From NCBI RefSeq assembly GCF_900169305.1, contig NZ_FWDP01000004.1, forward strand, positions 868,001 to 932,000: a stretch of DNA of 64,000 nucleotides, in the 5' to 3' direction. Of the stretch, positions 4,336 through 57,333 are shown piece after piece. The stretch is from Marinilactibacillus piezotolerans (GTDB lineage Bacteria; Bacillota; Bacilli; Lactobacillales; Carnobacteriaceae_A). A program made the translations under genes and the position numbers. The notes below the pieces were generated by a model. That model made no database searches, was not told the DNA's origin, and was given only the letters and a program-made list of their open reading frames with translations. The number at the start of each line of letters is the position of its first letter. Position 1 is the first letter of the stretch.

Positions 4336-4402
4336 TGAAACCAGTCTAGTCGAAAGTTTGTTCTGACTTCATAGCCTTCTTTTCTGAACATTGCCTTTAC
4401 TT

Positions 4403-4431
4403 TTGTAGTTTAGGTTCATTCCTTGTAGAAT
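4403..4431 (+). promoter_or_regulatory. Promoter of the acylphosphatase gene
   Basis: TTGTAG at 4403-4408, a 17-base spacer, then TAGAAT at 4426-4431, about 35 bases before the start codon. Confidence 0.5.
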
Positions 4432-4466
4432 AAAGGAATAAGGTACTAAATAAAGGAGGAAAACAA

Positions 4467-4838
4467 ATGGGTTCTCTATTTGACAGTTTTTTAAACAAAG
4501 GAAAGCAGAACAAGCAGCCAGCCCCTGTAGACTATCTGAACGAAAGAAATCCCCATACAGATCAAGACAAGATCTCAGCACAAGTGTATGGCCACGTCCA
4601 AGGTGTCGGATTTCGTATGAGTACTAAACAAGCTGCGGATGAGATCGGTGTTACCGGTATTGTTCGGAATGAAAGTGACGGATCGGTTTATGCTGAGGCA
4701 GTAGGTTCATCTGAACAGATCGATCAATTTATAGAAGTTTTGCGCAAAGGACCTAGTCCAGCAGCTTCAGTAGATAAAGTTGTGATTAAATTCGATGAAA
4801 AGATTGAAGAAAAATCAAATTTTTCACAGGCTAATTGA
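4467..4838 (+). CDS. Acylphosphatase with an N-terminal extension
   Basis: A 123-residue protein. Residues about 35-120 are a complete acylphosphatase fold, with the signature GHVQGVGFR (the phosphate-binding Arg) and GIVRNESDGSV (the catalytic Asn). The enzyme hydrolyses acyl phosphates such as acetyl phosphate. Typical members are about 90 residues; this one has an extra hydrophilic head of about 33 residues (MGSLFDSFLNKGKQNKQ...). The head is translated from a good start with AAAGGAGG upstream. yidC2 follows 77 bases later on the same strand, a pairing I recall from other lactobacilli. A fixed head of unknown role is the only oddity. Confidence 0.9.
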   Translation: MGSLFDSFLNKGKQNKQPAPVDYLNERNPHTDQDKISAQVYGHVQGVGFRMSTKQAADEIGVTGIVRNESDGSVYAEAVGSSEQIDQFIEVLRKGPSPAASVDKVVIKFDEKIEEKSNFSQAN

Positions 4839-53361: not shown

Positions 53362-54723
53362 TTATAAATATTGCAGTAAAGAAGTTGCAATCGTAAAGTA
53401 AACGACTAGCCCGATCGTATCATTCAGCGTGGTGATAAAAGGTCCGGAAGCCACTGCCGGGTCGATTTTAAATTTGTTGATGACGACCGGAATAACTGTT
53501 CCAATCACTGATGCTAGACTTACGGATAAGAAAATGGAAGACCCAATGATAATACCAAGAATCAGATTGCCATATATAACCATGACAATGCCGAGCAGCA
53601 CTACTGCTGCCATTACACCGATCATCATTCCAGCACTCAGTTCATTTTTAACCGTTTTTATGAAATTATCTTTGTCATTATCATCGACTGTGAGATTTCT
53701 GACTGCCACAGCCAGTGATTGCGTCCCCACATTTCCGGCAGTCCCCATAATCATAGGAATAAATGCAGCAAGGATAACGACAGATTCCAGCGTATCTTCA
53801 AAATAACTGATCAGACTGCTGGTAATAAGACCTAGAAATAGTAAAATAATAATCCATGGTGCTCTTGATTTTGCTGCGTTAAATGGCGTCATTTTTCTGT
53901 CGTCTCCGCCTCTTCTGATACCGGCGAATTCATTAAAGTCTTCTGTTACTTCGTCTTGGATGACATCCATGACATCATCGACCGTTACGATCCCAAGCAT
54001 TGTTCCATCATGCGCAATAACCGGCAATGCCAGCAAGTCGTAGTCTTGGATGACTTGGGCAACTTTTTCCTGGTCTTCATCCACTCGGACTGAGACCACT
54101 TGCGAATACATCAAAGACTCAACCGTTTCTTCTTCTGAAGAGAGCAGCAAGTCTCTCAAGGAAAGAACGCCCAGCAGCCGATATTTTTCATCTACTACGT
54201 ACAAGTAATAGATGGTTTCAGCATGATGCCCGATCTGGCGCAGTCGTTTAATAACGTCGCTGGTCGTAGACTTGTAGTTGATCGAGATAAACTCTTTTGT
54301 CATAATGGATCCTGCTGTTTCTGGTGCATAAGACAGCAGCTCCTGTACCCGGTCGCTTTCTCGTTTATTCATCATTGACAGTAAAGCTTGATTATCAGTA
54401 TCCTCGCTGTTGGTTAAAAAATGCGCAACATCATCTGCTGCCATATGATTAAAGACTTTAGCCATATAAGCATCAGGAAGATACTGAACAGCATCTTCCT
54501 GATCTTCGATTTCCATCCATTCAAATACTTCAGCAAACTCTTCTGGGGAAAGAAATTCAGAAATTTTTGCTTTTTTTTCTGGATACAATAGATGAAAAAT
54601 TTCATGCTGATCTCGGTCATGCAGCTGCAGAAATAGTTTGCGGAATGCTTCTCGATCGTTCTGCTTAGCTGCCTGAAAAATTTCATCGTAATTTTTTCGT
54701 TCTGTATTTTCTACTATTTTCAT
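53362..54723 (-). CDS. mgtE: Magnesium transporter MgtE
   Basis: A 453-residue Mg channel. The N-terminal superhelical domain (about 15-125) precedes two CBS domains (about 130-250, IMTKEFISINYKSTTSDVIKRLRQ and YSQVVSVRVDEDQEKVAQVIQDYDLLALPVI). A plug helix and five membrane segments follow, with AFIPMIMGTAGNVGTQSLAVAVR and the C-terminal FITTLNDTIGLVVYF. I prefer ATG 54723; a GTG at 54732 is possible. Neither has a good ribosome-binding site, and a strongly initiated frame overlaps the start, so translation is probably coupled. The CBS domains close the channel when Mg is high. Confidence 0.94.
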   Translation of the reverse strand: MKIVENTERKNYDEIFQAAKQNDREAFRKLFLQLHDRDQHEIFHLLYPEKKAKISEFLSPEEFAEVFEWMEIEDQEDAVQYLPDAYMAKVFNHMAADDVAHFLTNSEDTDNQALLSMMNKRESDRVQELLSYAPETAGSIMTKEFISINYKSTTSDVIKRLRQIGHHAETIYYLYVVDEKYRLLGVLSLRDLLLSSEEETVESLMYSQVVSVRVDEDQEKVAQVIQDYDLLALPVIAHDGTMLGIVTVDDVMDVIQDEVTEDFNEFAGIRRGGDDRKMTPFNAAKSRAPWIIILLFLGLITSSLISYFEDTLESVVILAAFIPMIMGTAGNVGTQSLAVAVRNLTVDDNDKDNFIKTVKNELSAGMMIGVMAAVVLLGIVMVIYGNLILGIIIGSSIFLSVSLASVIGTVIPVVINKFKIDPAVASGPFITTLNDTIGLVVYFTIATSLLQYL

Positions 54724-54835
54724 ACTTGCCACTCATTTCGGATTCATATTTTAGCGAAGACATATGTCCAAGCTGCTTATCTGACATTGCTTCATTTTCT
54801 TTCATTATCTGATTCGAACTGGGAACAGCATCCAT
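54683..54835 (-). CDS. Putative 50-codon leader ORF overlapping the mgtE start
   Basis: On the minus strand GGAGGTGA, nearly the full anti-Shine-Dalgarno complement, lies at ideal spacing before ATG 54835. The frame runs 50 codons and ends with TGA at 54683, about 40 bases inside mgtE in another frame. The peptide starts MDAVPSSNQIMKENEAMSDK and ends very basic (KYRTKKLR). mgtE itself has no comparable ribosome-binding site. I cannot tell whether the peptide matters or only its translation does. Confidence 0.5.
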   Translation of the reverse strand: MDAVPSSNQIMKENEAMSDKQLGHMSSLKYESEMSGKYENSRKYRTKKLR

Positions 54836-55063
54836 ATGCTTCACCTCCACTAGAATTCACACACACAAGGTTTTGCGCTTAAATAACGCTTCTAAGAACA
54901 CAAAAACCCCTGAGTGTATTACTGATTATTTCTTCTGCTTCGATCCCTGATTTCTCCATAAAAAAAACACGCTCTGAGCATGCAATCAAGATGAACTCTT
55001 ATTCATTAGACCTGCACCTCTGCTATAAGTCCTGACTTTAAACCTCTCAATAAACCTTTACAA
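54836..55063 (-). promoter_or_regulatory. mgtE leader with promoter, short ORF and internal terminator
   Basis: On the minus strand, in order: TTGTAA-17-TAAAGT (55035-55063) as a candidate promoter; GAGGTG (55015-55020) before a six-codon ORF MNKSSS-stop (54986-55006); then a CATGCT/AGCGTG hairpin with eight T (54960-54983). About 120 further bases include a GGGGTTTT/AAAACCTT pairing before the strong ribosome-binding site of the 50-codon frame. I did not find the conserved M-box (ykoK) elements, so this is not an obvious Mg riboswitch. Confidence 0.5.
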
Positions 55064-55283
55064 ACCTAGTATTTTATTCAGACTTTTAAAGCTGATTTAA
55101 AGCGTTATTCCTAAGAAATGTTTTCATCTTTAATATAGAACCTTCTCAGTGGACAGATGAATTTCCTCCATAATCATAGCGAATTACGTTATTCGTTTCA
55201 AGATAATATTATTAGTTTTACATTACCCTATTCACTTTACTTTTTCAAAGATGACAGCTCGAAATTCCTTTCAGTCCTATTCT

Positions 55284-55312
55284 TTGTGATTGAAAGGCTT
55301 ATTTTGTATACT
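55284..55312 (+). promoter_or_regulatory. Promoter of the lipoprotein gene
   Basis: TTGTGA (55284-55289), a 17-base spacer and TATACT (55307-55312), 34 bases before the start codon. A longer open frame begins upstream of this promoter and is not used. Confidence 0.55.
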
Positions 55313-55345
55313 GGCAGTAATCAATCAATCTTAGGAGAGATCGAG

Positions 55346-55750
55346 ATGAAAAATTGGATAGCACTTAGTTTGGCAACGGTATTATTAGGCGCTTGTACAT
55401 CGGAAGTTTCTGAAGAAGACACGCTTTCTCAAGAAGAAGAAGCAGCTGTCGAAGAAGAGGTTTCTGACGCTGGCGCAACAGACGAAGAATTAGCTCCGGT
55501 CAATTCTGAGTCGCTAGATGAATCGGAAATCATTTCTGATATAACACAGTATGAAGAATTTGAGGAACAAGATGTTTTCGATCCATCTCAATTCGATGCT
55601 TATTTAGTCGAAGACTCTTATGGCGTTAGAATCATTGTTTTTGTAGAAGAAGGTACACAGAGATTTAAAAGCATTTTTACCAAAGAAGATAACCGGTTTA
55701 AAGTTATCGACTTAGAAACCGAAGAAGTATTATTAGATGCACCTATATAG
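55346..55750 (+). CDS. Small acidic lipoprotein of unknown function
   Basis: A 134-residue secreted lipoprotein with MKNWIALSLATVLLGACTSE: signal plus lipobox LLGAC (Cys17). An extremely acidic stretch of about 40 residues follows (EVSEEDTLSQEEEAAVEEEVSDAGATDEELAP). The C-terminal 65 residues look like a small beta domain (FDAYLVEDSYGVRIIVFVEEGTQRFKSIFTKEDNRFKVIDLETEEVLL). AGGAGAG lies eight bases before the ATG. The SDR gene follows 56 bases later without a terminator, so they may share a transcript. No family is recognised. Confidence 0.8.
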   Translation: MKNWIALSLATVLLGACTSEVSEEDTLSQEEEAAVEEEVSDAGATDEELAPVNSESLDESEIISDITQYEEFEEQDVFDPSQFDAYLVEDSYGVRIIVFVEEGTQRFKSIFTKEDNRFKVIDLETEEVLLDAPI

Positions 55751-55806
55751 TGATATGAAAAATAGACAAACAAATAATTAACTTAATAAAGAAAGAGGTT
55801 GAAAAA

Positions 55807-56673
55807 ATGACTGATGAACAAAAGATTGAGACGCAAGAACCTAAAAAGGATTATCTTATGCCGGATGATCGGGAAAAACTCGATCCGGTTCCTCAAGTAG
55901 ATGATCCGGAATATCGTCCAGCGGGTAAAATGAAAGGTTTCAACACCATCGTTACCGGTGCAGATAGTGGAATTGGCCGAGCAGTGGCCATTGCTTATGC
56001 TAAAGAAGGCGCGAACGTTGCACTGATTGATCTTGAAGATAAAGAAGATGCTCAAAGTATCAAAAAAGATATCGAAGATCTGGGGGTTCAAGCTTTGTTA
56101 TATACCGGAGATGTGGGTGACGAAGCTTTTGTTCAGTCCACTGTTAAAGAGATCACAGAAAAATGGGGCAAAATCCATGTATTGGTTAATAACGCTTCTG
56201 AACAGCATCCGCAAAAAAGTATTCTGGATGTCTCGGCAGCACAACTGGACAGAACTTTTAGAACGAATATTTTTGGTATGTTCTATTGGGCGAGAGAGGT
56301 TTTTCCTCACATGGCAGAGAATGGATCGATTATCAATTCATCGTCCGTAACGGCTTATAAAGGCTCTCCAGGATTACTGGATTATGCATCTACAAAAGGC
56401 GCGATCATTTCGTTCACGAGATCATTCTCTCAAAATTCAGAAGTCCTTGAAAAGAACATTCGAGTTAATGCTGTTGCACCTGGACCAATCTGGACACCAC
56501 TGATTCCCGCAACAATGGGCAGCAGTTATGAAGAACACGGCAGTGTCCCTATGGGCAGACCGGGCGAACCTTCTGAATTAGCACCCGCTTATGTCTATCT
56601 TGCTACAAAAGATTCAAGTTATGTAACGGGTCAGACGATTCATATTAATGGTGGTACCATTGTAAATGGCTAA
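55807..56673 (+). CDS. SDR family oxidoreductase, general-stress type
   Basis: A 288-residue short-chain dehydrogenase. An extra N-terminal segment of about 45 residues (KDYLMPDDREKLDPVPQVDDPEYRPAGKMKGF) is typical of the YdaD/YhdF/YhxC group of Bacillus stress proteins. The cofactor motif is TGADSGIGRAVA and the core motif NNAS. The catalytic set is Ser in INSSSVTAYKG and YASTK. The end reads SSYVTGQTIHINGGTIVNG. Substrate unknown. Confidence 0.92.
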   Translation: MTDEQKIETQEPKKDYLMPDDREKLDPVPQVDDPEYRPAGKMKGFNTIVTGADSGIGRAVAIAYAKEGANVALIDLEDKEDAQSIKKDIEDLGVQALLYTGDVGDEAFVQSTVKEITEKWGKIHVLVNNASEQHPQKSILDVSAAQLDRTFRTNIFGMFYWAREVFPHMAENGSIINSSSVTAYKGSPGLLDYASTKGAIISFTRSFSQNSEVLEKNIRVNAVAPGPIWTPLIPATMGSSYEEHGSVPMGRPGEPSELAPAYVYLATKDSSYVTGQTIHINGGTIVNG

Positions 56674-56690
56674 TTCTATATAGAATAAGT

Positions 56691-56728
56691 TTAAAGCTCT
56701 GTACAATTTTCTGTACAGGGCTTTTTTA
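56691..56728 (+). terminator. Terminator of the SDR gene
   Basis: AAAGCTCTGTACA / TGTACAGGGCTTT stem with six T. Confidence 0.85.
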
Positions 56729-56754
56729 GTATAGCTATTCAGTCTCCTTTGCAC

Positions 56755-56793
56755 CAAAAAAAGCATTAGAGGCAAACTCCTTCTAATGCTTAG
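56755..56793 (-). terminator. Terminator of the HD-domain gene
   Basis: Minus-strand AGCATTAGA / TCTAATGCT stem with an 11-base loop, followed by seven T. Confidence 0.85.
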
Positions 56794-56808
56794 CTTTTTA
56801 TATTAATT

Positions 56809-57333
56809 TTAAGCGTTGACTAAACGCAATCTAGAGACCCAGTCTGTCACTTTTGTTTTTGTCTTCGCACGAAGCGGTTGTGAGACTTCATAAATTGCAC
56901 AGTATTTATCTACACACGTTACAATCATACTCTCTTTATAACGCGGCATACCGACTTTTGAGCACAAAAACATATGCTTTAAGATAATATCACGTTCTAA
57001 TTCATTGAGCGGTGTAATTTTTTCTGCATTTTCTACAGCGATTTTAGGATGCACACAGTTATGAGATCCTAGCTCCATTGCAGCAATTTCTTCTCGGCCT
57101 TCATGAAAAAAGTCATGCAGCAGTCCTGCGCGAGCAACAGCTCTGACATTCAAATTCATTTTTTTAGCAATACGATAACTCACATAAGATACAAAGATCG
57201 AATGCGTTAATCTGGTTGTATAGTGATGATGCGTAATATCATCCAGTTTTAACAAGTCTTTGTTTTCAATTAAATCTGCAATCAAAGCCATATAATCTTG
57301 GTCTTGCTGCCAGATCGATTCAACAAATTCCAT
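56809..57333 (-). CDS. HD-domain phosphohydrolase
   Basis: A 174-residue metal-dependent hydrolase. I start at ATG 57333, seven bases after AAGGAG (MEFVESIWQQDQ). Ligands of the HD fold are visible: His in THSIFVSYVSYRIA, the HD pair in ARAGLLHDFFHEGREE, a further His in SHNCVHPKIAVENA, and Asp in VTCVDKYCAIYE. This is the small cytosolic HD class with unknown substrate (often nucleotides). It is transcribed alone. Confidence 0.85.
   Translation of the reverse strand: MEFVESIWQQDQDYMALIADLIENKDLLKLDDITHHHYTTRLTHSIFVSYVSYRIAKKMNLNVRAVARAGLLHDFFHEGREEIAAMELGSHNCVHPKIAVENAEKITPLNELERDIILKHMFLCSKVGMPRYKESMIVTCVDKYCAIYEVSQPLRAKTKTKVTDWVSRLRLVNA

Follow-up and report, generated by a model that had tools for sequence, protein, structure and literature searches.

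A short open reading frame that precedes and overlaps mgtE in Marinilactibacillus piezotolerans is, on the evidence of sequence comparison, very likely a real translated leader, and it probably regulates in cis. Many families of Bacilli have comparable modules in front of Mg2+-transporter genes of the mgtE, corA, Nramp and P-type kinds, where they are found directly behind the M-box (ykoK, RF00380), a Mg2+ riboswitch. We lean modestly toward the reading that the frame encodes a translated, cis-acting leader peptide that works in the manner of the enterobacterial peptides MgtL and MgtQ. If this is true, the M-box, among the best-known metal riboswitches, would have an overlooked translational partner, and the ribosome would serve as a Mg2+ sensor well beyond enterobacteria.

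The locus lies in a stretch of 64,000 nucleotides (the window), and its features are listed in Table 1. An earlier note on this DNA had described a 50-codon frame with a strong Shine-Dalgarno (SD) sequence that runs into mgtE, and we confirm this description. The frame begins on the minus strand with an ATG at 54835, which is 5 nucleotides past an 8-base SD, ends with a TGA at 54683 (54835-54683), and overlaps mgtE in another reading frame. The mgtE reading frame is open from a GTG at 54732 to 53362, and the in-frame TGA (54735-54733) placed by the note directly before the mgtE start is the codon before this GTG. However, homologues of MgtE align from about the ATG at 54723 (MKIVENTERK), which favors that ATG as the start. 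Because the homologues start near it, the overlap is taken to be 41 nucleotides (50 if counted from the GTG), which agrees with the roughly 40 bases given in the note. Also borne out, by eye, is the lack of a comparable SD at mgtE, because none is seen at either the GTG or the ATG (upstream of the ATG: CCGAAATGAGTGGCAAGT). The mgtE product is a normal MgtE protein (TIGR00400, 414 bits against a cut-off of 233; Pfam MgtE, CBS and MgtE_N).

Table 1. Features of the leader-mgtE locus (positions in the window)
Feature	Position	Strand	Basis and remarks
Leader ORF, 50 aa (P0001)	54683..54835	minus	Translation; MDAVPSS..., full product MDAVPSSNQIMKENEAMSDKQLGHMSSLKYESEMSGKYENSRKYRTKKLR
Leader Shine-Dalgarno GGAGGTGA	54841..54848	minus	Read from the sequence; invariant in five Marinilactibacillus genomes
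Leader codons 1-6, MDAVPS (acidic residue 2, proline 5)	54818..54835	minus	Kept across relatives
mgtE, Mg2+ transporter	53362..54723	minus	Start (ATG) placed from homologues; a GTG at 54732 shares the frame
Promoter-like site (TTGAAA, 17 nt, TATGAT) for a leader-mgtE transcript	55173..55201	minus	Consensus scan, 10/12 matches; prediction only
Terminator-like hairpin, then T run, 5' of leader	54967..54983	minus	Scan, 7 pairs
5' arm of predicted SD:anti-SD hairpin	54832..54850	minus	RNAduplex, -17.7 kcal/mol; p 0.015 against 200 shuffles
3' arm (anti-SD), in leader tail just upstream of mgtE start	54738..54767	minus	RNAduplex pairing

The arrangement is unlikely to be accidental: the 2.29-Mb genome has only three instances of GGAGGTGA-N(3-9)-TGGA, and the other two open ORFs of 334 and 74 codons. 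The leader product, P0001, is polar by eye and has no credible match in Pfam or NCBIfam. Searching 59 other genomes of the same order with the whole peptide produced no convincing relatives, with two chance-level matches (E 0.4-0.5) in one genome. A search of this kind misses the conservation of the leader, which is limited to its first five or six codons. Upstream of the leader, the terminator-like hairpin aligns in genomes G001 and G002, and a similar hairpin is recognizable by eye in G003; the scan that found it returned three sites in 3 kb compared with 2.0 in shuffled sequences. In one locus of G003 (L004, ~1350-1390), a perfect terminator-like hairpin with a T run resides directly 5' of the leader, and an M-box is not detectable there. 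A rho gene is present in the genome (610 bits).

Within the family, 26 mgtE loci were scanned (L001-L024, L026 and L029). An SD followed by [M/L]-[DE]-x-x-P precedes mgtE in 5 of 5 Marinilactibacillus loci, 8 of 12 Alkalibacterium loci and 1 of 9 other loci, the last being the sole locus of genus g4. The 14 resulting leaders begin with MDAVP, MDSAP, MDASP, MDPVP, (M/L)DSVP, LDKVP or MEPVP. They span 26 to 50 codons, and their tails differ in sequence, length and frame offset; among Marinilactibacillus, the tails of only the window, G001 and G002 are alike. In the aligned 5' regions of the five Marinilactibacillus genomes, which align poorly farther upstream for G003 and G004, the longest near-invariant run is SD-ATG-GAT-NNN-NNN-CCC-AGT. 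The earlier note had named loss of the frame in close relatives that keep mgtE as grounds for refuting the idea of a leader, and here the outcome is divided. The frame is kept throughout Marinilactibacillus, but is absent from four Alkalibacterium loci (L010, L014, L015 and L016) and from all eight loci of five further genera (L019-L024, L026 and L029), each of which retains mgtE. Comparison gives good support to the wider proposal that a leader peptide precedes mgtE; it includes these loci, the survey of M-box loci and the predicted hairpin pairing described below. One further locus (L025, genome G048) has an mgtE copy with in-frame stops, and ~240 bases upstream of it an SD-like run and a VDSIPSC-like start can be seen by eye.

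The leaders of the family are closely associated with M-boxes outside Marinilactibacillus. An M-box lies upstream of all nine leader-bearing mgtE loci of other genera in the family, and the four leaderless Alkalibacterium loci comprise three without an M-box at that place and one with it. No M-box was detected in the mgtE loci of the five Marinilactibacillus genomes (G000-G004; covariance model, E<=0.001). A permissive RF00380 scan of window positions 53500-57000 gave no match at E<=1, and Rfam models yielded near the locus four weak matches, far below their gathering scores. The window, without a detectable M-box, still has the promoter-like site and the terminator-like hairpin. Because the M-box is undetectable in five genomes while the leader is kept, Marinilactibacillus seems to have lost the riboswitch and retained the leader, which would stand alone there.

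Leaders of this kind also precede mgtE behind M-boxes in Bacillales. Examples are MDSLPNPR in Shouchella (5-base SD), MDSSPEPDS in Alkalihalobacterium, MDSGPEPES in Halalkalibacter, MDPDSS in Alkalibacillus, MKKKSAADPDPRP in Salinicoccus and MDPDI or MDPDS in Alkalicoccus. The mgtE leader of Tepidibacillus, MKSDPSPR, has no M-box. Among the named mgtE loci, 13 of the 29 that have an M-box carry acidic leaders, of which one (L082) is inside the aptamer and should not count, compared with 4 of 51 without, these four being two from Marinilactibacillus, one from Tepidibacillus (L127) and one that is doubtful (L059). The Halalkalibacter alkaliphilus locus (L068) carries three M-boxes in 2.5 kb around one mgtE (2034-2199, 2582-2746 and 4342-4503), and the third of these precedes a gene that is MgtC-like by eye.

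A survey of M-box loci was evaluated with a rule that ignores the peptide: the best SD in each locus was taken, and it had to match at least 6 bases. Of 194 loci, with 44,534 bases covered, 77 have a strong-SD short ORF between the M-box and the gene that follows. The sample is non-random and combines the best-scoring loci returned, loci hand-picked at one or a few per genus, and named mgtE loci. The remaining 117 loci have no strong-SD leader under this rule, which leaves leaders with weaker SDs, such as that of Shouchella, uncounted. The identical rule found none in 30 TPP and none in 30 FMN riboswitch loci (14,019 bases), these controls being the 30 loci returned for each class, and the opposite strand gave three matches in total. 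The survey loci are nearly all from Bacilli, with one named Gracilibacter (L089). Of 195 compiled loci, one that was clipped (L167) was dropped; L056 and L058 were excluded as duplicates, and L047 and L051 were replaced by refetched stretches. Main ORFs were called by a simple script, which at some loci (for example, L040, L087, L157 and L181) placed them incorrectly or too late, and this affects some distances. The next genes include those for MgtE, CorA, Nramp and P-type ATPase proteins, which are four unrelated families of Mg2+ transporters; five of the genes were checked by Pfam and the others by eye.

The peptides, which had no part in the selection, tend to share an acidic start. An Asp or Glu stands at residue 2 in 52 of 77 leaders, compared with 4 of 36 control frames that lie within coding regions and are likewise preceded by an SD (Fisher p 1.4e-8, a value that is too good because the species are related and kinship is uncorrected). 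The pattern M[DE](x)(x)P opens 36 of the 77 leaders and none of the 36 control frames. Counted per genus, an acidic residue 2 is found in 26 of 39, and some acidic/proline motif in 33 of 39, with a lax regular expression such that 7 of 36 control frames have the motif or an acidic residue 2. The commonest residues give the consensus M-D-[S/D/P]-[S/V/G]-[P/S]-S-x-R. Fifteen of the 77 strong-SD leaders lack an acidic/proline motif, including a class resembling MVKRCILL. Twenty extra loci outside the 194 were mostly drawn from genera already known to have leaders, so that the 18 in which an acidic leader was recognized by eye, in some cases behind an SD of 5 bases, do not represent a frequency. 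Among them, every one of the seven g12 genomes sampled has MIQIDDHPEPHR, and three additional g15 genomes have xxxQ..E.EEPDSY. Two genomes have MPSL.AESDPDSS and one has MEDSEPQ, both kinds with 5-base SDs.

Residue 2 by itself cannot decide between constraint on the peptide and constraint on the nucleotides, because GAN codons always encode Asp or Glu. Three features nevertheless point to a signal at the level of the amino acids. Asp outnumbers Glu at this position (45 versus 7). At residue 5, all four proline codons are in use (CCC 11, CCT 10, CCA 4 and CCG 3). Acidic/proline runs also occur elsewhere in the leaders at differing positions, such as IDDHPEP, EVEEPDS, ESDPDSS and AADPDP. The MDAVPSS start in the window, with a single Asp and Pro, is milder than EPDP. 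Four leaders of genus g15 (L264, L347, L348 and L349) have 31 codons; their front half is acidic, and they end in NQAARVTNLHLWRT, a tail identical in the four genomes. In their front half, residue 7 alternates between Asp and Glu, and one genome has Gly instead of Glu at residue 6. Their tail contains the anti-SD and is nearly identical in nucleotides as well, and part of the leader tail looks like RNA structure. Serine codons in the leaders are very often AGT, a bias hinting at some nucleotide-level constraint too.

The SD and start region of the leader is predicted to pair with a segment of the leader tail that, in mgtE loci, mostly ends 12-49 nucleotides before the mgtE start. For the 57 leaders that have an acidic residue 2 or come from Marinilactibacillus, this pairing is significant in 41 (p<=0.05 against dinucleotide shuffles), compared with 1, 4 and 9 of 57 for decoy arms. 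Twenty other leaders yield seven hairpins at p<=0.05. In a swap test on 32 non-redundant leaders, one per N-terminal hexapeptide, the leaders' own arms average -19.5 kcal/mol versus -14.4 (sd 0.47) for permuted arms, and none of 5000 permutations reaches the observed value. The arms of the leaders thus covary. Taken singly, only 11 of the 32 arms pair best with their own target out of 32, and for 16 arms it ranks in the top three. Two Marinilactibacillus hairpins are individually non-significant (G002, p 0.16; G003, p 0.09). The ribosome-binding site (RBS) of the window leader is predicted to be almost fully paired (unpaired fraction 0.05), and the overall stability of the leader-mgtE region fold is not unusual (z +1.2; upstream region, z -0.45). 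When the leader start was blocked in folding, the accessibility of the next gene's RBS shifted by >0.1 for no more than 14 of 54 leaders, rising in 10 and falling in 4. Competition of the leader SD and the next-gene SD for one anti-SD was also considered and is not claimed, as folding with a blocked start showed no consistent effect.

The earlier note drew a parallel with mgtL, which is strengthened by these results, in that the conserved part of the leaders is the acidic/proline N-terminus, a signature of both MgtL and MgtQ. According to the available text of PMC11282234, MgtL precedes mgtA in E. coli and has EPDP near its N-terminus; in the published model, aborted translation at low Mg2+ alters the mRNA fold and thereby permits mgtA transcription. 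The available part of PMC8092293 describes MgtQ as an 8-residue ORF before mgtB in Salmonella with a strong SD, Asp2, Pro4 and Glu5, whose acidic codons cause poor translation and, in turn, more mgtB translation. The short ORF in the window likewise has its own SD, precedes a Mg2+ transporter gene and has acidic and proline codons early. As far as these two sources can be compared, MgtL likewise lies in the leader region 5' to a Mg2+ transporter gene and has an acidic/proline N-terminal run (PMC11282234). MgtQ shares the strong SD, the early acidic and proline residues, a transporter as the next gene, alternative RNA pairings that include the ORF, and, for MgtQ itself, action in cis (PMC8092293). 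By contrast with MgtL, the leaders described here belong to mgtE (elsewhere CorA-, Nramp- and P-type genes) in Bacillota, with an M-box upstream in the survey, and the sequence likeness to MgtL seen here is that of the motif. MgtQ differs in being intergenic within an operon, and its model frees the mgtB RBS, whereas the folding predicted here mainly hides the leader's own RBS (PMC8092293, in the portion available). The M-box precedes the surveyed leaders by construction, but no such aptamer is found at the window's leader-mgtE locus or in the four other Marinilactibacillus genomes.

Another short ORF associated with an M-box is the rv1805A uORF of Mycobacterium tuberculosis (pe20 M-box), which PMC12810186, in its available text, presents as a conserved short ORF behind the M-box. 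That ORF differs in being treated there as the gated gene; a search of the text returned neither 'leader peptide' nor 'MgtL', and 'acidic' is used only for pH. Two other candidates were set aside on the accessible portions of their sources: the small ORF of PMC4072509 is an MgtE-like fragment rather than a leader of this kind, and the mgtE motif of PMC11109978 comes from Thioalkalivibrio. The available portions of PMC9495176, PMC11567004 and PMC12992588 mention no such leader. Among the matches listed, which are mostly at the level of title or abstract and cover little subscription literature or bioRxiv, we recognized no published acidic leader behind an M-box or before mgtE in Bacillota. Leader-peptide sensing of Mg2+ is known from enterobacteria, and what would be new is its putative variant in Bacillota and the unexpectedly wide distribution suggested by these sequences.

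A Mg2+-dependent abort of translation on the leader is narrowly favored by analogy. Abort at low Mg2+ is taken as the likeliest signal because the element shares several parts with MgtL and MgtQ: the strong SD, the acidic/proline start, the covarying pairing and the Mg2+-transporter target. With ample Mg2+, the ribosome would pass the Asp and Pro codons and translate the leader to its end, and the SD:anti-SD hairpin would stay open. At low Mg2+, the ribosome would be destabilized at these codons and drop off, the hairpin would close, and the closed hairpin would result in higher transporter expression. Candidates for the last step are a freed mgtE start, an end of ribosome traffic across that start, a hidden Rho site, or coupling at the stop codon. 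The last of these is suggested by the predicted fold of the Halalkalibacter locus L068, in which the mgtE SD is part of a hairpin and the leader stop falls at its loop. To our knowledge, rho is absent from streptococci, so a Rho-site step would not be universal.

That same fold can also be read as plain translational coupling, which the earlier note had offered as an alternative, as can the geometry of the locus. In this reading, the leader would only deliver ribosomes to, or unfold, an SD-less mgtE start, and its acidic residues would be incidental. The 41-nucleotide overlap in the window has the geometry of a coupled pair; in all 14 leader-bearing family loci the leader stop lies from ~6 nucleotides before to 41 nucleotides after the mgtE start, with all three frame offsets represented; and the window's mgtE has, by eye, no SD on which to rely. 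The geometric part of the proposal thus stands, but folding with a ribosome parked on the leader gave no consistent effect on the RBS of the next gene. Moreover, most of the family relatives' mgtE genes have SD-like sequences of their own (by eye), some leaders elsewhere end far before the next gene (145 nucleotides in L151 and 65 in L252, yet 18 in L250), and the acidic/proline starts in 33 of 39 genera would be left unexplained. We consider plain coupling unlikely, although deserving of some weight. Control by RNA alone is less probable still. The SD:anti-SD hairpin, with or without an M-box, would then be the switch and the peptide sequence irrelevant, as might be expected from the covariation of the arms, the AGT serine bias and the near-identical tail nucleotides, anti-SD included, of the four g15 leaders. 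It is difficult to reconcile with the free use of proline codons, the excess of Asp over Glu, and acidic/proline runs whose position varies between genera.

The tail conserved within one genus in some leaders (NQAARVTNLHLWRT in four g15 genomes) could also reflect a trans-acting small protein whose target is the transporter or the membrane. We find this very improbable, as this tail includes the anti-SD, tails diverge strongly in the window's family, and P0001 appears polar. That the frame enters mgtE out of frame might suggest a displaced MgtE N-terminus produced by a frameshift or sequencing error. Comparison leads us to reject this with hardly any reservation: the relatives' leaders are separate ORFs, each closed by a stop of its own and occurring in all three frame offsets, and MgtE homologues begin at the mgtE ATG.

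If the reading of a cis-acting leader that resembles MgtL and MgtQ is right, a broader scenario can be proposed, tentatively and with something short of an even expectation. Bacilli would widely place a pair of Mg2+ sensors in series on a single mRNA: the M-box, an RNA sensor acting on transcription, and then the ribosome, sensing through an acidic/proline leader that aborts at low Mg2+ and is coupled to its SD:anti-SD hairpin. The peptide module would have been fitted to four unrelated transporter families. Marinilactibacillus would have discarded the riboswitch and come to rely on the ribosome alone. With the leader kept and the M-box not detectable, this genus would provide a natural experiment.

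Further strong-SD ORFs behind M-boxes deserve mention. A second, non-acidic class with 8-11 codons resides behind M-boxes in three genera (L036, L038, L039, L046, L237 and L066). Its peptides are MVKRCILL, MIKRCILT, MVKRCIIS, MVKRNYLVNSF and MVKRRILKN, and the next genes are transporter-like by eye. In L053 (genome G015), an M-box and a strong SD are followed by the leader MMEVSDDQLCM, and the next gene is MgtC-like by eye.
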